Below are positions 39,555 to 60,256 of a DNA stretch of 64,000 bases, in pieces. Each line of letters starts with the position of its first letter. Position 1 is the stretch's first letter. The notes below the pieces were generated by a model. The model was not told the origin of the DNA, made no database searches, and saw only the letters and a list, made by a program, of their open reading frames with translations. The DNA comes from Rhizobium sp. CB3090 (GTDB taxonomy: Bacteria > Pseudomonadota > Alphaproteobacteria > Rhizobiales > Rhizobiaceae). The translations under genes and the position numbers were made by a program. The stretch is from contig NZ_CP121664.1 of assembly GCF_029714285.1 (NCBI RefSeq), forward strand, positions 124,001 to 188,000, written 5' to 3'.

Positions 39555-40283
39555 GCGCCGTCTTCCTTTCGATCATGGGGTTCTGTGCTTGAGGGGGCGC
39601 TTTCGCGGCCAGGCATCATGGCTTCCCGCGGTCTTTCACCGAGCAAAAGGCATGCCATTCGAGTTGAAGATCGAGAACTTGGATCGCGTATGGCGGAATG
39701 TTTATTGACAGCACGGAGGGATTTCGCAGCAAGCGCTTCAACTTTGAGGACGGCGAGCGGGTCATCACTTGCGAACAACGCCCGGCGTTTTCCGTGGCGC
39801 CGAAGCGACCACGAAATGCGGAGATTGCACCCTTTCGGCTCTATTGCGTTGCGGCGCCAATGTCGATGCCAACGACGTCCGCAATCATTGGATTTCGCAA
39901 TGTGGATTTCGAGGAAAAGTTCGGTGCGCATCCTTTCGTTTCGATCTGCGGCAAGGCCGTCTATCAGGTGGACGGGCTGCGTCAGCCTCTTCTTTGCCGG
40001 CAATTTCGATCAGTACTTTTGCAGGAAAGGCGGATACGACGGAATACGACATGTCGACCAGGCCCCCGAGGTCGGATCTTACAAAGATGGCGCCGGCATG
40101 GACCTTTATGCCCTCACCCTGGCAGCCGGTTTCAAGCTCACGTTCTAGCCCGTTGTGACAATGGCAATTCGCTTCCGAAGAAATGCAAGTGATGCTCGAT
40201 AAGAGTTCTGGCTTGGAATGATGAGCTGGAGTTCATCCCAAGCGGGGTGCTGGCATTCGCCAGTACGCGTAGCTGTCGCACCC
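39555..40283. other. region with possible remnant of an outer-membrane protein gene
   Basis: About 730 bp. The plus-strand frame ending at 40148 closes with GAGMDLYALTLAAGFKLTF, which looks like the last beta strand of an outer-membrane barrel (terminal Phe). Upstream parts fall in other frames with no domain. I read it as possible decayed gene sequence. Confidence 0.3.
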
Positions 40284-40736
40284 CTAGGTCTCAGGCATCG
40301 CTGAGGAGTGATGGGCTGTAATCATCCATTTTCCGTCCATGAACTCATAGGTGTAGGTGTAACGCGCGGGAATTTTTGTGCCGTCGGCGAATGAAAAGGT
40401 ATAAATGCCGCTGTCCGTTGCCATGTTGCATCCGATCCTAATTACGCGCAGATCGATCGATCCTTTCGGCCGTTTTTTGAGAAAGTGGTCGAAATAAGCG
40501 GCTCGCTGCTCGTGCGTCAGACGCGGTGTGTTCGACAGCGTCGGCAGCAGGATCGCATTTTCTGCATAGTTCGCGGCAACTTTTTCGGAATCGAGCGTTC
40601 TGAGCGACGCATTCCAGCGATCGAACAATTCAGCAACCTGTTGCTCGGTGATCGGTGCGCAGTTTACAGTCCCAGCGACGGCTTGCTGCAAAGATAAAGT
40701 GGAAAGTACCGCCGCGGCGGCAAGTGTAAGACGCAT
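40284..40736 (-). CDS. secreted SnoaL/SgcJ-like (NTF2-fold) protein
   Basis: A 150-residue protein with a signal peptide (LTLAAAAVLSTLSLQQAVAG) and an NTF2-like domain of the SgcJ/EcaC or CaMKII-association type: QQVAELFDRWNASLRTLDSE, then VAANYAENAILLPTLS, and YTYEFMDGKWMITAHHSS at the end. It is probably periplasmic. These domains bind small ligands or form oligomers; enzymatic roles are mostly unproven. No operon partner. Confidence 0.75.
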   Translation of the reverse strand: MRLTLAAAAVLSTLSLQQAVAGTVNCAPITEQQVAELFDRWNASLRTLDSEKVAANYAENAILLPTLSNTPRLTHEQRAAYFDHFLKKRPKGSIDLRVIRIGCNMATDSGIYTFSFADGTKIPARYTYTYEFMDGKWMITAHHSSAMPET

Positions 40737-41087
40737 GCTTCATCTCCGGTTTTTAATTGCACGGGTAGGTTCTCGGCAGGGGCTTCTCTTGATTGCTTTC
40801 AGCATCACCCGTGTGCCGTCGACGCCCCTGATTTTCGTCACTCAATAGGCCGTCTGATGCAGCACGGCCGTCAATTCGTAAAATCGATTGTTTGGATAAC
40901 ACGCATCCACGTCATCAATTTACATTTTAAACACCCCGGCCCTCGTCAGAATTGCCGAGCAAGCAAAGACCGTGCCGCGGCGGATATCAGCAAGCTGACT
41001 TCAGGGCTGCTTTTGAGCAATGAGCTCTTTCAACACAAAGCGCGGCAAATGCGGAATTAACGTTCGAGAACGAAGTGCACAGCAATC
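40737..41087. other. intergenic region upstream of the nodO nod box
   Basis: About 350 bp between divergent genes, AT-richer than neighbours. It should contain the promoter of the SnoaL-like gene. A 67-residue plus-strand frame (40857-41060) has no recognisable feature. Confidence 0.4.
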
Positions 41088-41137
41088 CATCGGTGACATG
41101 GATGCAACCCATCGAAACAATCAATTATGCCCAATGT
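41088..41137 (+). promoter_or_regulatory. nod box upstream of nodO
   Basis: The sequence follows the nod-box consensus: GATG, six bases, ATCGAAACAATCAATT, then a CCAAT-like end. The left part (ATC-x-x-T then CATG before GATG) matches less well. It ends 65 bp before the nodO ATG. NodD bound to plant flavonoids would activate it. Confidence 0.8.
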
Positions 41138-42029: not shown

Positions 42030-42257
42030 TTGCATGATTTGCCACGAATCCTTGCCCCTTTCAGGTGCACCGTTTTGGCTTGTCCGGGAGTTCGCCCCTC
42101 GCAGCCCCTCAATTGGGTTTTTGCGGCAGGCATTGCGATATGTCGAATTCCTGAAAGCGAGTTCTGAAGGCCGCGGGTTCTTACCACATGGTCGCGGAGT
42201 GCAAATGAACTTTGCAAAATCGCCACGGCCCAAAGGGAGGAGGTAACGGCCCGATTG

Positions 42258-42554
42258 CTACCGCGGGGAATATGGCTTGACGCGTGCGGCGATCTCTTCG
42301 TCGAGGACAAAGCAATCGAGGAACTCCTGCCATTTTTCGGCTGACCGACGCGCCTCAGTCAGCATCTGCCTAAGTTCGTCGATGCCATCGTCTGTCAGAG
42401 CGGGTGTGCTCTCGTCATCTCCGGTCACGACGCTGATGATATTCCCATAGGTCAGGTTGTCATCATTGCTGATGATCTCCCTGAGGAGGTCGACGTCCTC
42501 ATCGAGGATTTCGGCGACATAGTCGATGGTGAAGACGAAGCTGACCGTTGCCAT
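42258..42554 (-). CDS. IS66 accessory (passenger) protein, acidic
   Basis: A 98-residue acidic protein (VAEILDEDVDLLREIISNDD) whose ATG overlaps the tnpC stop (ATGA) and whose stop lies just inside the left inverted repeat. It is therefore part of the element. Function unknown; several IS66 relatives carry a similar last gene. Confidence 0.7.
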   Translation of the reverse strand: MATVSFVFTIDYVAEILDEDVDLLREIISNDDNLTYGNIISVVTGDDESTPALTDDGIDELRQMLTEARRSAEKWQEFLDCFVLDEEIAARVKPYSPR

Positions 42555-44179
42555 CAAGCGGCCTCGGCGCAGATGATTGCCGCTGTCGGCTTCCAGTTCC
42601 ATGGAAGCAGCTCCGCGAGGCGATTGATCTTGTGATCCTGAATGCGGTCGAGCACATCAGCCAGATAGGCCTGCGGATCAAGGCCATTCATCTTGGCGGT
42701 TTCGATAATCGTCATGGCCCGCGCCAGGGTTTCTGCTCCAGTGTCGGCACCCGCGAAGAGCCAGTTTCGTCTTCCAACGCCGATAGGACGCAACGCCCGC
42801 TCGGCGGCGTTGTTATCGATTGCGACACGGCCATCTTCCAGGAACAGGCAGAATGAAGACCACCTGCTCAAGCCGTACCGGAAAGCGCCCGCCAGATCGC
42901 TCTTGCCGGGGATACGGGTCAGTTGCGCTTCGGCCCAGACGCGGAATGCTTCGACCTTTGCCTTGCTGTGCTTCTGGCGCGCGGCAAGACGGATATCGGC
43001 AGACTTGCCTGCAATGCCGCGCTCGATGTCGTAAAGCGCGCCGATACGGTCGAGAGCCTCGCGGGCAATCTCGGATTTGTTCGAGGTCCAGATATCGTGG
43101 AAGTCGCGCCGCCAATGCGCCCAACATGAAGCCTCCCGGAAGCGGCGTTTCCCGTCCGTTCCGGCCTCATATAACTTCGCATAGCCTTTGTAGCCATCGG
43201 CCTGAAGGATGCCGCTCGCCTCCTTGAGGTGACGGTGAACGTGCTCTTCCTTCCAGTCGGGAGCAAAATAATAGACCGCACCGGGCGGAGCTATGCCCGC
43301 CCATGGGCGCTGGTCCCGGACATAGGTCCAGAGCCTGCCCTTCTTCACCCCTTTCCCCAGCCCCTTGTCGCGTAGAGAACGATCCAGAACCCGGATCGGC
43401 GTGTCGTCGGCGTGGAGAAGGTCGCTGCTCATGATCGCGGCTTCGATCAACTCGATCAGCGGCAGGAGCACCTGCATGGCGCGGCCACACCAATCGACCA
43501 ACGTGCTGTCGGGGATATCAACGCCCATGCGGGCGAAGATTTCGTTCAGGCGATAGAGCGGCAAGTGGTCGTCGAACTTCGAGACCAGGATATAGGCCAG
43601 AAGACCAGCGCCCGCCATGCTGCCCGATATCGGACGGCTGGGCGCGGGCAACTGCACCATCTTCTCGCAGCAGCGGCAGGACTTCTTCAGCCGGGCGATC
43701 TCGATGACCTTCATCTGTGCGGCGATCATGTCGAGGATTTTGCTGACGTCTTCGCCGACAAGCCGCAGTTCGCCACCACAAGCGGGGCAGCACGTTCCGG
43801 GATCAAGTTCCCTGCGCTCGCGAGCGGCCTTGTCCGACACGCGCGGACGGCGGCGCATGGTCTTTTCAGGCATGCTTTCCTCAGGCGCGGCAGGCTCCGT
43901 TTCTTCGTCCTCGGCGAGTGGCTCGCTGCTGCCTTCCGAAGCGGCAATCATCAGGTCCTCGAGCGCCAGTTCCAACTGCTGGATTTCCCGCTCGATCTTT
44001 TCCGACGACTTGCCGAAGCCATGTTTCTTCAGCCTGGCGATGCGCAGCCGCAGGGACTGGATCAACTGATCATGCGCCTGCAAGGTCGCAGACATCTTCG
44101 CGTTCTTCGCCTCAAGCGAGGCGATCATCGCCTTCAGGAAGGCCGGATCATCGGGAAGATTTTGGCTCGCGTTTGACAT
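42554..44179 (-). CDS. tnpC: IS66 family transposase TnpC
   Basis: A 541-residue transposase. It has an N-terminal coiled coil (LEAKNAKMSATLQAHDQLIQ), a zinc finger (CCPACGGELR with CRCCEKMV), a DDE catalytic core (LHADDTPIRVLD; DGYKGYAKLYE; the late IDNNAAERALRPIGVGRRNW with the catalytic Glu), and a conserved C-terminal WNW-type ending (LLPWNWKPT). Full length and apparently intact. ATG 44179 is taken as start. Confidence 0.93.
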   Translation of the reverse strand: MSNASQNLPDDPAFLKAMIASLEAKNAKMSATLQAHDQLIQSLRLRIARLKKHGFGKSSEKIEREIQQLELALEDLMIAASEGSSEPLAEDEETEPAAPEESMPEKTMRRRPRVSDKAARERRELDPGTCCPACGGELRLVGEDVSKILDMIAAQMKVIEIARLKKSCRCCEKMVQLPAPSRPISGSMAGAGLLAYILVSKFDDHLPLYRLNEIFARMGVDIPDSTLVDWCGRAMQVLLPLIELIEAAIMSSDLLHADDTPIRVLDRSLRDKGLGKGVKKGRLWTYVRDQRPWAGIAPPGAVYYFAPDWKEEHVHRHLKEASGILQADGYKGYAKLYEAGTDGKRRFREASCWAHWRRDFHDIWTSNKSEIAREALDRIGALYDIERGIAGKSADIRLAARQKHSKAKVEAFRVWAEAQLTRIPGKSDLAGAFRYGLSRWSSFCLFLEDGRVAIDNNAAERALRPIGVGRRNWLFAGADTGAETLARAMTIIETAKMNGLDPQAYLADVLDRIQDHKINRLAELLPWNWKPTAAIICAEAA

Positions 44180-44242
44180 GAACCTGACTACCACAGGTCA
44201 GGGTCAATATCCATAAAAACACGCAAATTCAGTGAGATAAAG

Positions 44243-44590
44243 TCAACCGACACGGGCCGGAGGAACGCCCCAGTCGGGCCGTCGCCAATCAATCCCTTCC
44301 CACAGCATTGCCAGTTGAGCAGACGTCAACCGGGCTGCTCCATCTGCTGCCAAGGGCCATGGAAACCGCCCTTTCTGCAAGATTTTGTAATAAAGGCAGA
44401 ACCCCTGGCCGTCAAAATACAATAGCTTCAAACGGTCGCCCCGCTTGCCCCGAAACGCGAAGACCGCACCTCCCGTCGGCTTCTGGCGCAGCACATCCTG
44501 GGCAAGAGCAGCCAGCCCCTCTATCCCCTTGCGCATGTCCGTGACACCGCAGGCGATATAAACCCGAACACCTGTCCCAGGCCCGATCAT
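44243..44590 (-). CDS. tnpB: IS66 family accessory protein TnpB
   Basis: A 115-residue IS66 Orf2 protein with the family motifs GVRVYIACGVTDMRKGIEGL, GAVFAFRGKRGDRLKLLYFD and LWEGIDWRRPDW. Its start overlaps the tnpA stop. Required for transposition of IS66-type elements; biochemical role not settled. Confidence 0.93.
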   Translation of the reverse strand: MIGPGTGVRVYIACGVTDMRKGIEGLAALAQDVLRQKPTGGAVFAFRGKRGDRLKLLYFDGQGFCLYYKILQKGRFPWPLAADGAARLTSAQLAMLWEGIDWRRPDWGVPPARVG

Positions 44591-44967
44591 GCCGCCTCGA
44601 TTGCCCGGATCAGGCGCTTCAGTGCAACCACATCAACATCGCCACTGAAGCGAAGGCTTCGTCCGCAGCGCAGTTGCAATTCCATCATTGCAGGCAAAAC
44701 CTGCATGCCATCAAAAGCCCGAGCCTCTTTGCTGTCCCCTGCCGGCGGCATGTCCAGCGGCAGAAACACCGTCGTCGACGGCGGCGACAGCAGGCCCTTC
44801 TTCCGCAATTCACGCCGCCAGGTGTAAACCTGCTGCCGCGTGACCGAATACCGGCGCGCCACCTCTGTCACCGACGCGCCGTCGACGCCTACCGACAGCA
44901 CGACCTCCAGCTTGCTCTCATCACTCCAACGTCGGCGACGTTCATCGCCGAGAATTTCCACGCGCAT
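44587..44967 (-). CDS. tnpA: IS66 family protein TnpA (helix-turn-helix)
   Basis: A 126-residue Orf1 protein with a helix-turn-helix (GASVTEVARRYSVTRQQVYT then WRRELRKKGLL). It is the first gene of the element, just inside the right inverted repeat. Confidence 0.9.
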   Translation of the reverse strand: MRVEILGDERRRRWSDESKLEVVLSVGVDGASVTEVARRYSVTRQQVYTWRRELRKKGLLSPPSTTVFLPLDMPPAGDSKEARAFDGMQVLPAMMELQLRCGRSLRFSGDVDVVALKRLIRAIEAA

Positions 44968-45066
44968 CGCAGGTCTCGCCTAAAGCACGTCGCTAACGAC
45001 GTCGTTATAGACGGGTCATAAACAAGTAAGCCGATCTCCGACAGGCGGCCACAATCGGGCGGTTAC

Positions 45067-45657: not shown

Positions 45658-46596
45658 ATGCGTTTCAAGGGTCTTGACCTTAATCTTCTCGTCGCATTGG
45701 ACGCTTTGACGACTGAGCGTAACGTTTCAGCAGCGGCGTGCAGCATCAATCTCAGTCAGCCTGCGATGAGTGCCGCCGTCCGCCGGCTGCGCGACTATTT
45801 CGGCGATGACCTGTTTACGATGCAGAACCGAAAACTTATTCTGACGCCACGTGCGGAAAGCCTCGCCTCCGCGGTTCGAGAGATACTCCAGCACATTCAA
45901 CTCAACGTTATTTCTGCCGGCAGCTTCGCACTGGACGAACCGGAGCGACACTTCACGATTGCGCTTTGTGATTTCATGACGACCGTGTTCTTCCGGAAAA
46001 TCATAAAGCGGCTGGCACGGGAAGCTCCCGCAGTCAGTTTCGAGTTGATTCCGCTCCCAGATAACCCGGACCAGCTTCTGCGGCGGGGCAAAGCAGATTT
46101 TCTGATTCTTCCGGAATTGTTCATGTCAAGCGCACATCCGAGAGCGAAGCTGTTCGACGAAAAGTTCGTGTCTGTTGGCTGTACGACGAATACGAAGCTA
46201 TCTCGGCATCTTACAGTCAGAGACTATATGTCGATGGGCCACGTCACGGCTAAGTCTGGGGTTGGCCAACAGCAATCGCTTGAGGATTTTTATCTATCGG
46301 AACGAGGTGTCAAAAGGCGTATCGAAGTCGCCGTTCAGAGCTTTGGGATGGTGCCGGCAGCGCTGTTGGGCACCGACAGACTCGCGATTATGCCTCTGCG
46401 ACTGGTGAAGCATCTCGCACCATCTATGCCCTTGCGGATTGTGGAAAGTCCAATACCTCTTCCAGCGTTCACCGAGGGCATCCAGTGGCCAGCCTCCCAT
46501 GAAAACGATCCGGCGAGCACCTGGATGCGTGAGATAATTCTGCAGGAGGCGTACCGCATAGCAAGCCCTTCCATGTGTCGCGAAGGTGACACTTAG
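45658..46596 (+). CDS. nodD: LysR-type nodulation regulator NodD
   Basis: A 312-residue regulator. The N terminus is diagnostic: MRFKGLDLNLLVALDALTTE, then the helix-turn-helix AACSINLSQPAMSAAVRRLR. The effector domain has the family's FTIALCDFMT stretch. NodD binds nod boxes and activates transcription when plant flavonoids are present. Two nod boxes in this window (41088, 48827) are its likely targets. Which NodD paralogue it is cannot be decided from sequence alone. Confidence 0.95.
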   Translation: MRFKGLDLNLLVALDALTTERNVSAAACSINLSQPAMSAAVRRLRDYFGDDLFTMQNRKLILTPRAESLASAVREILQHIQLNVISAGSFALDEPERHFTIALCDFMTTVFFRKIIKRLAREAPAVSFELIPLPDNPDQLLRRGKADFLILPELFMSSAHPRAKLFDEKFVSVGCTTNTKLSRHLTVRDYMSMGHVTAKSGVGQQQSLEDFYLSERGVKRRIEVAVQSFGMVPAALLGTDRLAIMPLRLVKHLAPSMPLRIVESPIPLPAFTEGIQWPASHENDPASTWMREIILQEAYRIASPSMCREGDT

Positions 46597-46746: not shown

Positions 46747-47835
46747 ATGCAGTATCCAAATTGTAATCACGAACAGGCGTATCGGATGTCGCAAAGCAGT
46801 AACCCACATTTGACATTTAGGCGTGATGGATCGTCATTTGATGGCATGATCGAAACACTCGGTACCGCCTTTGGCGAGTATAAAGCCGAGCTTGTCAGCC
46901 CCGTCGATGACTTCCAATGGAGTCTTGATTTTTCCACCTGCGACTGTGCCACCGTGATCAAGGGTTTTCATCAACACGAGTTCGAGTTTCAGATTGAGCC
47001 TACCATCAACGCAGTGGAGCATTTGTCGATTGTGCTACCGCGTAGCGGCGGCATGGGAGTGACCTACGGCCCGCGCGAAGCCACCGCTCGACATGGTAAG
47101 TTGCTCTTATACAACAATCTTGAGCCAGAGAGCGTCACGATGTTCGGCCGATCGAACATCATTGACGAACTTTTGCTCGACTGGAATGTTATTCTGCAGA
47201 CGCTCGATCAAACCTTCGAGACGCCATTCAGTGGATCATTAGGCCTTCTTCCGGAATTGGAAATGTCGACGTCGACGGGTCAGATGATCGGCTCTCTCGC
47301 TGAGACCGTCATTCGTGGGTTGCGCGATCCCTCGGTTCGATCCCCAATTGCAATGGCGCATATCACGCAAGCTTTGGCCGACCTGATAATACGCTTTGTC
47401 CCTCACAAGCTTTCGCACCTGCTCGACAGGAAGCCCTACATGATTGCCCCGAGGCATGTCCGGCGCGCGATTGAATATATGGAATCCAATATCGGCCAGC
47501 CGATCAGAATTCCGATGGTCGCCAAAGCCGCTGGCGTCTCGACACGCGCATTGCAACTCGGGTTCCGTGCCTTCCGGGAGACCACGCCGGCCGCTTATTT
47601 GGCGATGCTTCGCCTGCGGGCGGCGCGGGTGGATTTACTTGATCCTGAGAATGGGCACACAACGAGAGAAATTTGCGTGAAATGGGGATTTCTTCACTTC
47701 GGGCGGTTCTCGGCGATGTACAAGGCAAATTACGGTGAAAGCCCTTCTCATACGAGAAAGCGCATCAGGGGTATGCAGCCGCGCTCGCGCCGGCAACAAA
47801 AAACTTTAGTGGGCAACTCAATCTCACAGAGATGA
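46747..47835 (+). CDS. AraC family transcriptional regulator
   Basis: A 362-residue protein. An N-terminal AraC-binding-like domain (with FHQHEFEFQIEP and MGVTYGPREATARHGKL) precedes the C-terminal double helix-turn-helix (VRRAIEYMESNIGQPIRIPM, AAGVSTRALQLGFRAFRETT, then WGFLHFGRFSAMYKANYGES). The start may be 46747 or the ATG at 46786. It lies 150 bp after nodD on the same strand, and upstream of the nodA nod box. Its target is unknown. Confidence 0.85.
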   Translation: MQYPNCNHEQAYRMSQSSNPHLTFRRDGSSFDGMIETLGTAFGEYKAELVSPVDDFQWSLDFSTCDCATVIKGFHQHEFEFQIEPTINAVEHLSIVLPRSGGMGVTYGPREATARHGKLLLYNNLEPESVTMFGRSNIIDELLLDWNVILQTLDQTFETPFSGSLGLLPELEMSTSTGQMIGSLAETVIRGLRDPSVRSPIAMAHITQALADLIIRFVPHKLSHLLDRKPYMIAPRHVRRAIEYMESNIGQPIRIPMVAKAAGVSTRALQLGFRAFRETTPAAYLAMLRLRAARVDLLDPENGHTTREICVKWGFLHFGRFSAMYKANYGESPSHTRKRIRGMQPRSRRQQKTLVGNSISQR

Positions 47836-48826: not shown

Positions 48827-48875
48827 CATTCATCGCTTGGATGCACCGCATCCAAATAATCGATTTTACGAATTG
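48827..48875 (+). promoter_or_regulatory. nod box upstream of nodA
   Basis: A near-consensus nod box: ATTCAT, six bases, GATG, six bases, ATCCAAATAATC, GATTTTACGAAT. Compared with ATCCAY-N6-GATG-N6-ATCNAAACAATCRATTTTACCAAT it differs at only a few positions. It lies about 250 bp upstream of nodA and probably drives nodA, the acyltransferase, nodF and nodE together, because no other nod box lies before nodF. Confidence 0.9.
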
Positions 48876-49886: not shown

Positions 49887-51812
49887 ATGCCGCGAGAATT
49901 TCGAGCCGATATCCAAGCCCTACGAGGGCTCGCTGTTTTGCTGGTTGTTCTCTATCATGCCCATATTGGGCCGTTCGCAGCTGGTTATCTTGGCGTTGAT
50001 GTTTTTTTCGTAATTTCGGGCTTTCTGATCACCGATCTGATCAGTAGGCAACTGGAGCAGTCGCGGTTCAGCTTCTTGGAATTCTACTATAGACGTGCGA
50101 AGCGTCTGTTGCCGGCCGCCTACGTCGTTATTGCGCTTACGACGATCGCTGCGCCTCTTTTTCTGTCGGACGTGGGGCTGCGGGAGTTCCGCAATCAGGT
50201 GATAGGGGCCCTCACATTTTCCGCCAACATCGTTCTTTGGTTGCAGGCGGACTATTTCGGCCCTGTCGCCGAACGGATGCCCCTCCTGCATTTTTGGTCG
50301 CTCTCGATCGAAGAACAATATTACCTGCTGCTGCCTCTCTTCTTGGTTTCGGTTCCTAGGAGATGGTGGCTCGTTGGAATTGCCATGCTCCTTGTCGCCA
50401 GCCTGACCCTGTGTGTTTGTCTGGTCACCTGGAACCCCTCGGCTGTCTTTTATCTTCTGCCGACCCGATCTTGGGAAATGGCCATGGGTTCACTCGGGGC
50501 TTTGCTTCCCATCAGGCCCTTGGTGTCTGCCGCGCTTGCGAAGTTACGTTTCCCAGCACTCGCGCTTCTCCTCCTTGCCCCAATGGGTTTTGCTCATCCT
50601 GTCGTCAATGCCGCTTTGGTTTGCTTGGCCACTCTCGCTCTCCTACGCGCGCCTAACTGGGACAACGCGGTCGTGCGTGGCATGAGGAGGATCGGTGACC
50701 TCTCTTACTCGCTTTATCTCATCCATTGGCCCGTGCTCGTCTATGTGAGAGCTGTGTGGTTGGCGGAACCTCCAGCGCTTGCGATCTATGCGGCCGTTGC
50801 TTTTTCAATGGTTGGGAGCTGGGCGCTTTCCAGGTTCGTGGAGGAGCCATTCCGACGCGGATACGCCATGTCGCGCGTCCGGCTGGTCTCGGGATTGGCT
50901 GCAACGTCGGTTCTACTCGCCTCCTCGCCCTCCCTTGCCATTGCCGCGACCGAGAGCAAGTCTGATTTCGCCACCATCCGGCGGATCAACTACGGCCTGG
51001 GAAGAGCATGTGATTTCAGCCTGGGATCGCCTCCCCAGGAAATCCCCAAGAGCTGCCAGACGGCAAGCAGGCCCGAGCTATTGGTCTGGGGCGATTCTTT
51101 TGCAATGGCACTTGTTCCGGGCCTGGCCAAAACAGTTGGCGAAGGCGGCCTTGCCCAGCTCACGATGAGCGGGTGTCTCCCCGCCATTGGCGTTGCTGCT
51201 GTCTCGAGGGAATTAGCGTCACCCTTTTCCCTTGCCTTTGCCCAGGATTGCATTGCCTTCAACGACCGCGTTTTGGCCATTTTGAAAAACCGACCGGAGA
51301 TAAGCACAGTTGTTATTTCAAGCCCTTTCGACACGCCTGTATCGGGTGAATTTATCCTGCTCAAGAGAAATGGTGAGACTTTCACTGAGGGCGAGCTCTC
51401 GCTCTATGCAGCCGTTGAAGGGATCAAGGCTCTCGTCGAAGCCGTTCGGGCAACGGGCAAGCGCGTCGTTGTGGTTGCTCCTCCGCCAGTCGGAAACTTC
51501 GACATCGGCGATTGCCTGGAGCGGAAGGCGAGGGGGAGCATTATGCTTGGGCGCTACAGCGACTGCAAAATAGATGTGAGTGAATATCGCCGCAGACGCG
51601 CCCGCACCCTGGAGCTGTTAAACGAAGCAGCGCTAAAGGCCGACGTAGAAGTCGTTTCCTACCACGACTTTCTCTGCGACGGCACAAAATGCAAAACCGA
51701 GATCGACGGCAAATTCCTTTACCGAGATAGTGGTCACCTTTCCTATGAAGGATCTGAGATCATTGCTCGCCAGACAAATCTTGCTGAGAGGCTGATCAGG
51801 GCCGCTCGCTAG
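49887..51812 (+). CDS. membrane O-acyltransferase (AT3) with C-terminal SGNH domain
   Basis: A 641-residue OafA-like protein. The N-terminal 340 residues are an acyltransferase-3 membrane domain with about ten helices (REFRADIQALRGLAVLLVVL; catalytic-type His in LYHAHIG; FVISGFLITDLI). Then follows a periplasmic SGNH-hydrolase-like domain with block I GDSFAMALVP (Ser present) and the late DSGHLSYEGSE with the Asp-x-x-His pair. Such enzymes add acetyl groups to polysaccharides. Here it lies between nodA and nodF, so it may O-acylate the Nod factor or its precursor. It is longer than NodX and unlike NodL. Function is inferred. Confidence 0.88.
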   Translation: MPREFRADIQALRGLAVLLVVLYHAHIGPFAAGYLGVDVFFVISGFLITDLISRQLEQSRFSFLEFYYRRAKRLLPAAYVVIALTTIAAPLFLSDVGLREFRNQVIGALTFSANIVLWLQADYFGPVAERMPLLHFWSLSIEEQYYLLLPLFLVSVPRRWWLVGIAMLLVASLTLCVCLVTWNPSAVFYLLPTRSWEMAMGSLGALLPIRPLVSAALAKLRFPALALLLLAPMGFAHPVVNAALVCLATLALLRAPNWDNAVVRGMRRIGDLSYSLYLIHWPVLVYVRAVWLAEPPALAIYAAVAFSMVGSWALSRFVEEPFRRGYAMSRVRLVSGLAATSVLLASSPSLAIAATESKSDFATIRRINYGLGRACDFSLGSPPQEIPKSCQTASRPELLVWGDSFAMALVPGLAKTVGEGGLAQLTMSGCLPAIGVAAVSRELASPFSLAFAQDCIAFNDRVLAILKNRPEISTVVISSPFDTPVSGEFILLKRNGETFTEGELSLYAAVEGIKALVEAVRATGKRVVVVAPPPVGNFDIGDCLERKARGSIMLGRYSDCKIDVSEYRRRRARTLELLNEAALKADVEVVSYHDFLCDGTKCKTEIDGKFLYRDSGHLSYEGSEIIARQTNLAERLIRAAR

Positions 51813-51906: not shown

Positions 51907-52188
51907 ATGGCAGATCAAATCGCAGATAACGTCATCGCCATGATCAAGAAAAACGCTGCTGCGTATGGCACCGACAGAGATCCCTCCTTGAGCGACGCCG
52001 AAATAACGACTGAGACCGAGCTGACCTCGCTCGGTATCGATTCGATAGGACTGGCGGATATCCTCTGGGATCTGGAGCAAGCCTATGACATCGGCATCGA
52101 GTTTAACACCGCAGACGCCTGGGCAAATCTTAAAACTGTCGGTGATCTCATTGAAGCCGTCCGCGCTTTGAGAGTAAGGGAGGCTTGA
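51907..52188 (+). CDS. nodF: specialised acyl carrier protein NodF
   Basis: A 93-residue acyl carrier protein. The phosphopantetheine Ser is in LTSLGIDSIGLADILW. With NodE it makes the special, often polyunsaturated, fatty acid that NodA places on the Nod factor. AGAGGAGA precedes the ATG. The stop is immediately followed by the nodE ATG. It lies 94 bp after the acyltransferase, with no nod box between. Confidence 0.94.
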   Translation: MADQIADNVIAMIKKNAAAYGTDRDPSLSDAEITTETELTSLGIDSIGLADILWDLEQAYDIGIEFNTADAWANLKTVGDLIEAVRALRVREA

Positions 52189-53397
52189 ATGGACAGGCGC
52201 GTCGTTATCACTGGAATGGGCGGCCTATGCGGACTGGGAACCAACCACACCTCCATCTGGGAAGCAATGCGCGAAGGACGTTCCGCTATCGGCCCAATCG
52301 CCAATTCAGACCTTCACGAGTTGAAGGGCATGATCGGCGCCGAGATCAAGGCGCTACCGGAGCATGGCCTAAATTCCAAGCAAACCAATTCAATGGACCG
52401 CTTCAGCTTGCTTGCCGTGATTGCCGCACGCGAAGCTGCAAGACATGCCGAACTCTCCATTGACGAAGGAAACACCTATCGCATCGGTGCGATGGTGGGT
52501 GTTGGCGTGTGCGGCTGGGAAGCGATCGAAGGAAACTATCGCGCTCTTCTTTTAGATGGCGCTCGGCGGGCTGCCATCCTTACTGCACCCAAGGTTATGC
52601 CGAGTGCTGCCGCCGCTCAGGTCAGCATGAGCCTTGGCTTGCGCGGTCCGGTTTTCGGCGTCACATCCGCCTGTGCCTCGGCCAACCATGCCATCGCCTC
52701 GGCAGTGGATCAGATCAGGCTCGGCCGCGCCGACGTGATGCTGGCCGGCGGCAGCGAAGCCCCGCTTGTGTGGGGCGTGCTGAAGTCTTGGGAAGCGCTG
52801 CGCATACTCGCGCCCGATACCTGCCGACCCTTCTCCGCCGACAGAAAAGGCGTGGTATTAGGCGAGGGCGCGGCAATGGCGGTATTGGAAAGCTATCAGC
52901 ATGCGGCACGGCGGGGTGCGACGATACTTGCCGAAATCGCCGGCGCTGGTCTTTCCGCCGACGCATTCGACATCGTTGCACCTGCCGTCGAAGGGCCGGT
53001 GGCCGCGATGCGCGCCTGCCTTTCTGATGCTGAGCTGAATGCTGAGGACGTGGATTATCTAAATGCGCATGGCACTGGTACCAGAGCCAACGATCAGATC
53101 GAAACAGCAGCGATCAAACGTGTCTTCCGACATCATGCCAACTCGATGTCCGTCTCCTCAACCAAATCCGTGCACGCGCATTGCCTCGGTGCGTCGAGCG
53201 CGCTCGAGATGATCGCCTGTGTGATGGCTCTGCGCGAAGGCGTCGTGCCGCCGACCGCCAACTACCGCGAGCCGGATCCTGCTTGCGATCTCGATTTTAC
53301 TCCCAATGTGCCGCGCGAGCGGAAATTGCACGTAGCACTGAGCAACGCCTTCGCCATGGGCGGCACGAATGCCGTTGTGGCATTCAAGCGGGTATAG
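52189..53397 (+). CDS. nodE: beta-ketoacyl synthase NodE
   Basis: A 402-residue condensing enzyme, exactly the usual NodE length. The catalytic Cys is in [15 protein letters not shown], and the two His are in [13 protein letters not shown] and [16 protein letters not shown]. It elongates acyl chains on NodF and determines host range through acyl structure. It begins directly at the nodF stop. Confidence 0.95.
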
Positions 53398-58157: not shown

Positions 58158-58736
58158 TCAATGCGAGCTTCTGACCGATAAGATGGCCGTGGCCAAAGCT
58201 ATCGCAGCCAGGCCGGCTGCCCCGATCGGCAGCACCGACACGTCATAATTTGCAATAAGCTTGCCGCCGACTACGGCGCCGCCGGCAACGCCTATGTGCA
58301 TTGCGGTGACATTCGCACCGATGATAATGTCGCTCGGGCTTCGGCCGAGATCCGCAATATAGCTTTGGACGATCGGCGAGATCGACCAGCTCGCGCATCC
58401 CCACATTGACAGGCTCGCGAAAAAAAAGATGCTGCTTTCTGACATGCATAACAGCAACGTTGTGACGAGATAGATTGCAGGGCTGGCGACCAGCGCGAGC
58501 CGACGACCTGCGACGTCAGAGAGAATACCGGCAAGCATGCCGCCCGCCATGCCCGACGACCCGAAAACCGCGTAAAGAAAGGCCTCCCAATGTGGCCCGA
58601 AGAACCCCTTGCTTGCGGCGTAAGAGGTCAAATAACTGAAGAGGGTGAAATGACCTGCAATGAACAAAATGGAAACACACTGCGCCATCATCTGATTGCG
58701 ATCTCGGAAATGAGCTAGGCTGTGGTGACGATTTAA

Positions 58737-59231
58737 CTATTTGATCCATAGCATGATGCTTGCAAGCTTGATGAAGCCGAGGAAGTGGGCGGCGAGCTTG
58801 TCGTAGCGTGTTGCGATGCGCCGCCATTGTTTGAGCTTGGAAAAGAAGCTCTCGATACCCCATCGTTGCTTGTAGGCGAGGCGATCGTAAGCATGCTGAT
58901 GCTTGCGGTGACGGCGAGGTGGAATGACCGGTTCGCCGCCATGGTCGAGGATGATGTCATGCAGGCTGTCGGCGTCGTAGGCACGATCCGCAAGCACCTG
59001 CTTGGCTGGCAGCCCTCGAATGAGGTCGCAGGCGGGTGCCATGTCGTTTTGTTGTCCGGGACCGAGTCGGAAGCGAACCGGCAATCCCAGCGCATCGACT
59101 ACAGCATGGATTTTGCTCCCAAATCCGCCTCGGGAACGGCCGAGAGCCTGGGTTTGCGCTCCCCCCTTTTTCGACGTCCACCAGCGGCCTGTGCCTGCGC
59201 CCGGATGACTGTGGCGTCGATGGACAGCCAT
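58737..59231 (-). CDS. IS5-type transposase, C-terminal frame (orfB)
   Basis: A 164-residue frame holding the second and third catalytic parts: ADRAYDADSLHDIILDHGG and YKQRWGIESFFSKLKQWRRI. It overlaps the first frame by about 130 bp. In this group both frames are usually joined by programmed frameshifting. There is no strong independent start. Confidence 0.85.
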   Translation of the reverse strand: MAVHRRHSHPGAGTGRWWTSKKGGAQTQALGRSRGGFGSKIHAVVDALGLPVRFRLGPGQQNDMAPACDLIRGLPAKQVLADRAYDADSLHDIILDHGGEPVIPPRRHRKHQHAYDRLAYKQRWGIESFFSKLKQWRRIATRYDKLAAHFLGFIKLASIMLWIK

Positions 59232-59500
59232 TCCATGTCCGGATCGGCAGCCACAGTATCAAAGATCTGGTCGAATACGCCCTGTTCGATCCAGCGATAG
59301 TAGCGCCGCTTGACAGTCTGATAAGGACCGAAACGATCTTCGGGTAGATCGCGCCAGCGTGCACCAGAGCGGGCAAGCCACAACACCGCATCGAAGAATC
59401 GGCGACCGTCGCTACGAGGACCACGCCGGCCCTTACGGCCACCCGGTACAAACGGTTTCAGCCGCTCCCACTGATCGTCTCGAAGTGTCTCGCCATCCAT
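59099..59500 (-). CDS. IS5-type transposase, N-terminal frame (orfA)
   Basis: A 133-residue frame starting MDGETLRDDQWERLKPFVPG, with the DUF4096-type N-terminal domain and the first catalytic Asp in LSIDATVIRAQ. The supplied longer frame fuses it to the interrupted MFS gene because the two happen to be in the same phase; the natural start is the ATG at 59500. Confidence 0.85.
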   Translation of the reverse strand: MDGETLRDDQWERLKPFVPGGRKGRRGPRSDGRRFFDAVLWLARSGARWRDLPEDRFGPYQTVKRRYYRWIEQGVFDQIFDTVAADPDMEWLSIDATVIRAQAQAAGGRRKRGERKPRLSAVPEADLGAKSML

Positions 59501-60256
59501 CGCTAACCTCCAAAAGCTAGCGTTGAATCTGATTTGAGCCTCAGATGGAATCCAAAACGTTAATTTGTCACCACACCCTAGATACAATTTGCCAAAAAGC
59601 GAGCGCTTGCTCCTCGACCGGACATTCGGTAGTCGGACGATTACAAGCCATATAGTGACGACAGATAGCCCGATCATCGCAAGGCCTACGGCGCGCCAAC
59701 CACCCAGATGTGTAATCCAAATGCCCAGAGGCACCCCCAAAAAAAGTGAGCCGCCTATTCCAAGGTACACGGCGGCTATGGCACGAGCTCGGTCTCTTTC
59801 CGAGACGATCTGAACTGCAGAACCGACGGCGCACACCGATATCTGCGCGCAAGCCATTGCCGTGATGATCCTTGGGCGCTTATCACGAGCAGCCCCGATC
59901 CACCGATCACGACCGCCACATTGCTTCCTGCAAAGATCGATATCGCTGCGACGAGCGTCGGTTGGATCGAAACGATAGGAAATCAGTGCAGCGATCGGCG
60001 CGAAGAAGGCATAGGTGATCGAGAAAACTGAAATGACGCTACTTGCTTCGGACTCGCTTACTCCAAGGCTGCCGGCCATATCCGGCAGCACCCCGATGAA
60101 AACGTTCTCGGCCAGTCCTGTGATAAACACAGCAATAGTGAGTACGAGAATTCGACTATCCATGCCGCCAACCGTGCTGGATTGGCGGCTTCTTGCGCGG
60201 TCTCTTTTCCACCAGCTCTGCCCCCATGCTCTCAGCAGTCCTCATATGCCCTGGTT

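Follow-up and report, generated by a model that had tools for sequence, protein, structure and literature searches.

An hsnT orthologue between nodA2 and nodF of Rhizobium sp. CB3090 very probably encodes a Nod-factor O-acetyltransferase of the AT3-SGNH type

Introduction

A 64,000-nucleotide stretch of Rhizobium sp. CB3090 (contig NZ_CP121664.1, positions 124,001 to 188,000; hereafter the window) carries an acyltransferase gene between a nodA and a nodF gene, and the question it raises is what the product does and whether it is new. An earlier note, made from the sequence of the window, described an uncharacterised 641-residue protein with an AT3 membrane domain and an SGNH domain, and proposed it as an enzyme that modifies Nod factors (lipochitooligosaccharides, LCOs). 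The observation is confirmed by the open reading frame (ORF), by Pfam and by the neighbouring genes, and the interpretation is partly supported. Judged by sequence and gene order, the gene is hsnT, an orthologue of hsnT from R. tropici CIAT 899 (RTCIAT899_PB01100), so that both the gene and its class of function are already known in print. Its product is very probably a NodD-controlled Nod-factor O-acetyltransferase of the AT3-SGNH type. The recombinant interior of the allele in the window is a new detail.

Results

Domains and catalytic residues

The ORF is single and unbroken, with an ATG start and 641 codons. Its only Pfam matches at a cut-off of E 0.001 are an AT3 domain and, following it in the chain, an SGNH domain (Table 1), which is the architecture of the fused AT3-SGNH acyltransferases. 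The AT3 domain holds the pair Arg13-X10-His24, Arg-X10-His being an AT3 motif. The GDSF (residues 402-405) and DSGH (614-617) motifs lie where the earlier note had placed them, and they supply the SGNH triad of AT3-SGNH enzymes: Ser404, Asp614 and His617. In OafA, this triad is important for function (PMC7448272). Two other architectures were considered: an AT3-only enzyme of the NodX/NolL type was set aside because of the SGNH domain, and a NodL-type cytosolic hexapeptide acetyltransferase was rejected on the same Pfam result.

The predicted structure of HsnT resembles, in a second look with VIA-align, the SGNH domain of OafB and the acetyl-CoA membrane acetyltransferase HGSNAT, and the OafB-like SGNH fold of the model is that expected of an AT3-SGNH enzyme. 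Such a fold would place acyl transfer in the periplasm, as had been proposed. The two Foldseek matches of the model below 0.001 are PatB and an esterase. A sequence search against solved structures returned two weak matches, both to an unrelated enzyme, and these were taken as chance. Ratios of nonsynonymous to synonymous divergence (dN/dS) of 0.11-0.19 in four comparisons indicate that the protein is under purifying selection.

Relation to HsnT of CIAT 899 and NoeT of N. galegae

Over its full length, the protein is 99.4% identical to that of Rhizobium sp. CB3060 (from Leucaena) and 85.0% identical to that of CIAT 899, and it matches N. galegae NoeT end to end with 71% identity over 641 residues, the SGNH part included. 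The CIAT 899 match (NC_020061, 192929-194851) has the hsnT coordinates printed in PMC4782375, minus the stop codon. The order of genes is also the same in CIAT 899 and in the window: LysR, AraC, NodA, AT3-SGNH, acyl carrier protein (ACP), beta-ketoacyl-ACP synthase, amino acid permease, SulP and carbonic anhydrase. The earlier note had suggested a search for the gene near other nodA-nodFE clusters, and CIAT 899 is one example of what was found. Because this order recurs in other strains, the position of hsnT between nodA and nodF is not a matter of chance.

The equation "hsnT (=noeT)" has been made in print (PMC4624370), and the term uncharacterised does not hold for this gene. The nodA2-hsnT-nodFE operon of CIAT 899 has been described together with its nod box and its induction (PMC3557214, PMC7499043, PMC4782375): NB2 precedes the operon, and both apigenin and salt induce it (PMC7499043, PMC4782375), with salt induction requiring NodD2 and OnfD. 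For the 639-residue NoeT of N. galegae, a gene-replacement mutant examined by mass spectrometry lost the O-acetyl group of its Nod factors, and NoeT is needed for O-acetylation of the N-acetylglucosamine (GlcNAc) adjacent to the non-reducing end (PMC4085339), at a position given as C-3 (PMC5080398). The earlier note also held that such a modification was not described for this domain type, which NoeT contradicts. Its list of known O-acetyltransferases (NodL, NodX and NolL) was incomplete in leaving out NoeT. More generally, hsnT, nodF and nodE are described as important for Nod-factor synthesis, decoration and symbiotic performance in some hosts (PMC9048898). The operon thus published in CIAT 899 has its counterpart in the window. 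Mutants of CIAT 899 in hsnT, nodF or nodE reportedly make fewer Nod-factor forms in the study by Gomes et al. from 2019 (Microbiology 165:990).

One rhizobial clade behind nod boxes

The homologue search gave 67 loci, to which records from a plasmid collection were added. Ninety-two proteins were extracted; the addition of three p0345-type proteins (see below) and the removal of 11 rows (six duplicates, one truncated, one with a stop and three distant) left 84. In the tree of these proteins, 39 rhizobial sequences that include the window gene, CIAT 899 HsnT and N. galegae NoeT form one clade with SH-aLRT support of 100 and a stem of 0.52, separate from homologues of at most 47% identity in Zoogloea, Lysobacter, Thauera and others. 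Relations among the outsiders were not used, because this tree carries a warning that long branches may have come together, for the most part among these outsiders. A second tree of 37 rows (32 from the clade of 39 and five of the 40 outsiders; like the first, LG+G4 without a mixture model) recovers the clade at 100/100 and divides most of it. Twelve rows, among them the window gene and CIAT 899, make up an HsnT subclade (97/95), and 16 rows make up another (98/97) with NoeT, most Sinorhizobium copies, two from Mesorhizobium and one from R. leguminosarum.

Gly402-Asp403-Ser404 is unchanged in all 39 clade members and in all 40 outsiders, which are mostly non-rhizobial and include the paralogue from the genome itself and a protein of Rhizobium deserti. 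On the NoeT side, the rows of this alignment that carry the GDS motif include L074 and L088. All 40 outsiders have His617, and 38 of 40 have Asp614; within the clade, each of these residues occurs in 37 of 39 rows, the other two being gapped at the site. The clade has 37 clade-specific residues. At position 408, four residues past the catalytic Ser, Ala occurs in at least 38 of the 39 members and His in 37 of the 40 others.

In 43 of 46 rhizobial rows, the 1.5 kb ahead of the gene contain a nod box, scored as present at 26 or more of 34 informative consensus positions, compared with two of 44 other relatives, both of them p0345-type genes; the highest score among the other 42 is 20/34. The gene nodA lies directly upstream in 16 of the 46 rows, and most of the others stand behind a nod box of their own, 160-361 bp ahead. 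Among 148 genomes of the genus, the HsnT clade (E 1e-100) is found in 15, all of which belong to the 65 that encode NodA (Fisher's p 1.6e-6, uncorrected for relatedness). Hits were obtained in 16 genomes; the sixteenth, at 39% identity in a NodA-negative genome, was left out of the HsnT count.

In CB3090 itself, the nod box (Table 1), counterpart of NB2, begins 296 bp ahead of nodA2 and 1059 bp ahead of hsnT, as expected for the HsnT/NoeT family, and predicts NodD regulation of hsnT. Three mononucleotide shuffles of the window peak at 20, 19 and 20 of 34. The 20-base core of the box has four sites with at most two mismatches in the 6.49-Mb genome, all on C3, the replicon to which the window belongs, and the reversed pattern has none.

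A recombinant hsnT allele

Of the strains compared, CB3171 has the operon closest to that of the window after CB3060; measured against it, synonymous divergence (dS) is 0.398 in hsnT and 0.055-0.100 in nodD2, onfD, nodA2, nodF and nodE. Against CIAT 899, the corresponding values are 0.447 and 0.121-0.270. Against R. jaguaris, hsnT (0.586) lies below the five other genes (0.704-0.811). Sliding identities place the shift of pattern within hsnT, close to the breakpoints listed in Table 1. Both CB3171 (chi-square 204.8, 0/500 permutations) and CIAT 899 (212.5, 0/500) are closer to R. jaguaris inside hsnT than outside it, and the comparison of CB3171 with CIAT 899 gives no clear recombination signal (14.8, 27/500). 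The dS contrast and the breakpoint tests together indicate that hsnT alleles were exchanged within an otherwise stable operon, on these sequence comparisons at least once and probably twice. In the plasmid collection, where a donor of the interior was sought, nothing beyond CB3060 (99.2%) came closer than 84.1%, which points to a donor unsampled in that collection.

Operon, replicon and neighbouring features

Table 1. Features of the hsnT region, in window coordinates.
Feature	Coordinates	Strand	Basis
nodD2-type LysR regulator	45658..46596	+	LysR domains; 95% to CIAT 899 LysR gene 188658-189596 beside nodA2
onfD, AraC-type regulator	46747..47835	+	HTH_18; 91% to CIAT 899 AraC-type gene
nod box, counterpart of CIAT 899 NB2	48828..48873	+	31/34 informative consensus positions
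nodA2, NodA family N-acyltransferase, 196 aa	49124..49714	+	PF02474 E 6.4e-91; 94% to CIAT 899 nodA2
hsnT (= noeT), AT3-SGNH O-acetyltransferase (very probable), 641 aa	49887..51812	+	ORF, Pfam, identity, trees
AT3 (Acyl_transf_3, PF01757) membrane domain, residues 7-316	49905..50834	+	Pfam E 1.1e-28
SGNH domain (fused to AT3 domains), PF19040, residues 388-629	51048..51773	+	Pfam E 1.1e-45
Recombinant interior of hsnT relative to operon (CB3171 as comparison)	50162..51706	+	two-breakpoint chi-square 120.6, 0/500 permutations
nodF, acyl carrier protein	51907..52188	+	PF00550 E 1.2e-8; 88% to CIAT 899
nodE, beta-ketoacyl-ACP synthase	52189..53397	+	PF00109/PF02801; 94% to CIAT 899

The nodA gene upstream of hsnT is nodA2, distinct from the nodA of nodABC. 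All three nodA genes of the genome lie on C3, which is thus the symbiotic replicon. A stretch of C3 also encodes nodB, nodC, nodS, nodU, nodI and nodJ; a 267-residue ORF without an NCBIfam match at 1e-30 occupies the usual place of nodH, and sulfate-activation genes that of nodP/nodQ. The start of onfD is annotated about 39 bp further in in CB3060.

Relative to CB3060, an IS66-type insertion at 42243-45066 (transposase ORFs 42554-44967; end overlap 8 bases) parts a calcium-binding (nodO-like) gene and the nod-box region upstream from nodD2-onfD, and it may sever these regulators from the upstream nod box described for CIAT 899. Two nod-box-like sites lie nearby: one at 40874-40919 (-), 30/34, points to a small SgcJ-like gene (40284-40736), and one at 41089-41134 (+), 26/34, extends over the start (41127) of the ORF for the calcium-binding protein. 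Near 39680, the window lacks about 1.1 kb that CB3060 has and that includes the 5' part of an omptin-family gene, and an insertion at 58719-59577 with a small transposase-like ORF breaks an MFS transporter gene whose CB3060 counterpart is intact.

Paralogues and broken copies

Another replicon of CB3090 carries one more full-length homologue (G000:C2:1023059-1024984, L002), 34% identical to HsnT and grouping away from it. In Sinorhizobium, two HsnT paralogues lie close together (L011:6001-10585, L082:3684-7935, L086:3734-7941, L083, L085 and L013), and the two copies of each strain sit on different branches of the tree; GR64 carries a third, divergent gene besides its pair, and in S. terangae one copy (L083:1103) comes after a nodA fragment. 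In R. altiplani and R. mesoamericanum STM3625 (L024 and L025, 6001-7919), hsnT lies in two frames and is apparently broken, although one paper describes STM3625 as without nodEF-hsnT. The S. numidicum gene (L090:6001-7627) consists of two overlapping annotated coding sequences and is apparently broken or shortened.

A second, divergent AT3-SGNH-like family also occurs on symbiotic plasmids (L082:9574-11574, L057:2388-4298, L091, L092 and L093) and is probably that of p0345 from IRBG74. In S. fredii GR64 and S. meliloti 4H41, a nod box lies about 0.55 kb upstream of these genes; in IRBG74 and S. alkalisoli, it lies downstream, before a UbiA-family gene, and none was seen at L093.

Discussion

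The pathway that we favor begins with NodD/OnfD, activated by flavonoid or stress, which would turn on nodA2-hsnT-nodFE from the single nod box. The AT3 domain would carry acetyl from cytosolic acetyl-CoA across the inner membrane, and the periplasmic SGNH domain (Ser404-Asp614-His617) would move it onto a GlcNAc hydroxyl of the LCO during export. Support obtained directly here comes from the domains, the catalytic residues, the nod box, the conserved operon, the clade, the co-occurrence with nodA and the similarity of the predicted fold to OafB and HGSNAT. We infer acetyl as the group, acetyl-CoA as the donor, the periplasm as the site and where the transfer falls with respect to NodIJ export. 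That the protein modifies Nod factors, as the earlier note supposed, is very probable, given its orthology to CIAT 899 HsnT, its kinship with NoeT and the nod boxes of the family. As for the hydroxyl acetylated in CB3090, the N. galegae site is, by analogy, our default guess.

Several observations weigh against this assignment. The window gene falls in the sister subclade of NoeT and not within the NoeT subclade, and the experimental data on function come from relatives, N. galegae and CIAT 899, so that their transfer to CB3090 is by analogy. Three of the 46 rhizobial rows have no nod box in the tested stretch (at L006 the contig offers too little upstream sequence, and at L017 and the first GR64 copy a box lies about 2.7 kb upstream). 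The 46 rows are not independent, because the window gene is counted twice and several strains are nearly identical; the genome counts likewise ignore kinship, and two of the 15 carriers (G005 and G048) match over residues 170-641 only. The nod-box scores depend on a hand-written consensus. Finally, a mutant of IRBG74 p0345, a distant relative 28.5% identical to NoeT, showed no clear loss of any decoration (PMC5080398).

A variant compatible with Nod-factor O-acetylation concerns the position that is acetylated. HsnT of the tropici type might, although we think it the less probable case, acetylate a position other than that of NoeT, for example on the non-reducing terminal residue, and thus replace NodL. 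Consistent with this, a nodL-like gene of CIAT 899 was found only on the chromosome and not on the symbiotic plasmid (PMC3557214), acetyl at the NoeT position is not among the decorations reported for CIAT 899, HsnT and NoeT occupy separate supported subclades, and the interior of hsnT recombines. However, with 71% identity and matching catalytic residues, HsnT is predicted to carry out the reaction of NoeT, and acetylation in CIAT 899 could be explained by the chromosomal nodL-like gene or by either of two plasmid acetyltransferase genes that do not resemble nodL, hsnT possibly among them (PMC3557214). Thus, tropici-type HsnT may acetylate another position, or the chromosomal nodL-like gene or another plasmid acetyltransferase may supply the acetyl group of CIAT 899.

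Two further readings were set aside on the evidence. It is very unlikely that HsnT O-acetylates a surface polysaccharide (lipopolysaccharide (LPS) O-antigen or exopolysaccharide) in the manner of OafA/OafB and lies among nod genes by chance. The closest solved SGNH domain to the HsnT model is that of OafB, an O-antigen acetyltransferase, the CIAT 899 O-antigen contains acetylated 6-deoxytalose (PMC3557214), and relatives outside the clade come largely from non-rhizobial bacteria and have no upstream nod box save the p0345 type. Nevertheless, nod boxes precede the rhizobial copies and, outside the clade, only two p0345-type genes; all 15 HsnT carriers are NodA-positive; the operon is conserved; the noeT mutant has its Nod-factor phenotype; and the separate homologue on C2 could serve polysaccharide acetylation. 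More improbable still is the transfer of a fatty acyl chain made by NodF/NodE instead of acetyl. This is suggested by the place of hsnT between nodA2 and nodFE and by published proposals that the cluster is responsible for incorporating unsaturated chains, with hsnT maybe an acyltransferase (PMC3557214, PMC5080398). Yet the noeT mutant, which makes no acetyl-bearing LCO, retains chains with two and three double bonds (PMC4085339), and HGSNAT, the closest membrane-domain match of the HsnT model, uses acetyl-CoA. Moreover, N. galegae HAMBI 1141, NXC14, GR64 and S. terangae have no annotated nodF or nodE within 6 kb of hsnT in gene tables that are incomplete, and HAMBI 1141 also lacks a tblastn match to either near hsnT.

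Returning to Nod-factor O-acetylation as the function, a tentative and rather unlikely elaboration is that HsnT/NoeT is an AT3-SGNH family recruited once to the Nod regulon, whose acceptor site then diversified by allele exchange and duplication. Signs of this are the long stem with its 37 clade-specific residues, among them the change at position 408, the two supported subclades, the split Sinorhizobium pairs and the recombined interior. The hydroxyl used by tropici-type HsnT, including the recombinant allele, would then differ from that of NoeT, and the members of Sinorhizobium pairs would differ in position.

Compared with known systems, the window gene is most like CIAT 899 hsnT in length, operon, matching nod box and LysR and AraC neighbors, and differs in its more divergent, recombined interior. 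NoeT of N. galegae HAMBI 540/1141 is similar in length and also follows a nod box; unlike hsnT here, it stands behind its own box, outside any nodA-nodFE cluster. OafA and OafB differ in their acceptor, LPS O-antigen, whereas that proposed for HsnT is a lipochitooligosaccharide. To our knowledge, NodX and NolL lack an SGNH domain. They too are AT3-type Nod-factor O-acetyltransferases (PMC9558356), with other acceptor positions (reducing-end C6 and fucose). IRBG74 p0345, with which we probably equate the AT3-SGNH-type protein L091 by its plasmid and LysR neighbor, is an acyltransferase gene that neighbors nodD1 on a symbiotic plasmid, but L091 falls in a separate clade and the p0345 mutant lost no decoration outright (PMC5080398).

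The placement of this gene with HsnT/NoeT gives a supposedly uncharacterised gene a tested relative and joins two literatures, that of AT3-SGNH biochemistry and that of Nod-factor NoeT/HsnT. The word SGNH has no use in the NoeT paper (PMC4085339, the source checked for it), and NoeT and HsnT have no mention in an AT3 review that discusses NodX and NolL (PMC9558356); we did not meet the link between NoeT/HsnT and the SGNH domain in print. Since review and paper are unlinked, the two-domain model of OafB could guide mutants of the Nod-factor enzyme. The interest that remains is modest and lies in the acetyl position of tropici-type HsnT and in the exchange of hsnT alleles. For the symbiosis, Nod-factor O-acetylation may tune stability and host recognition.
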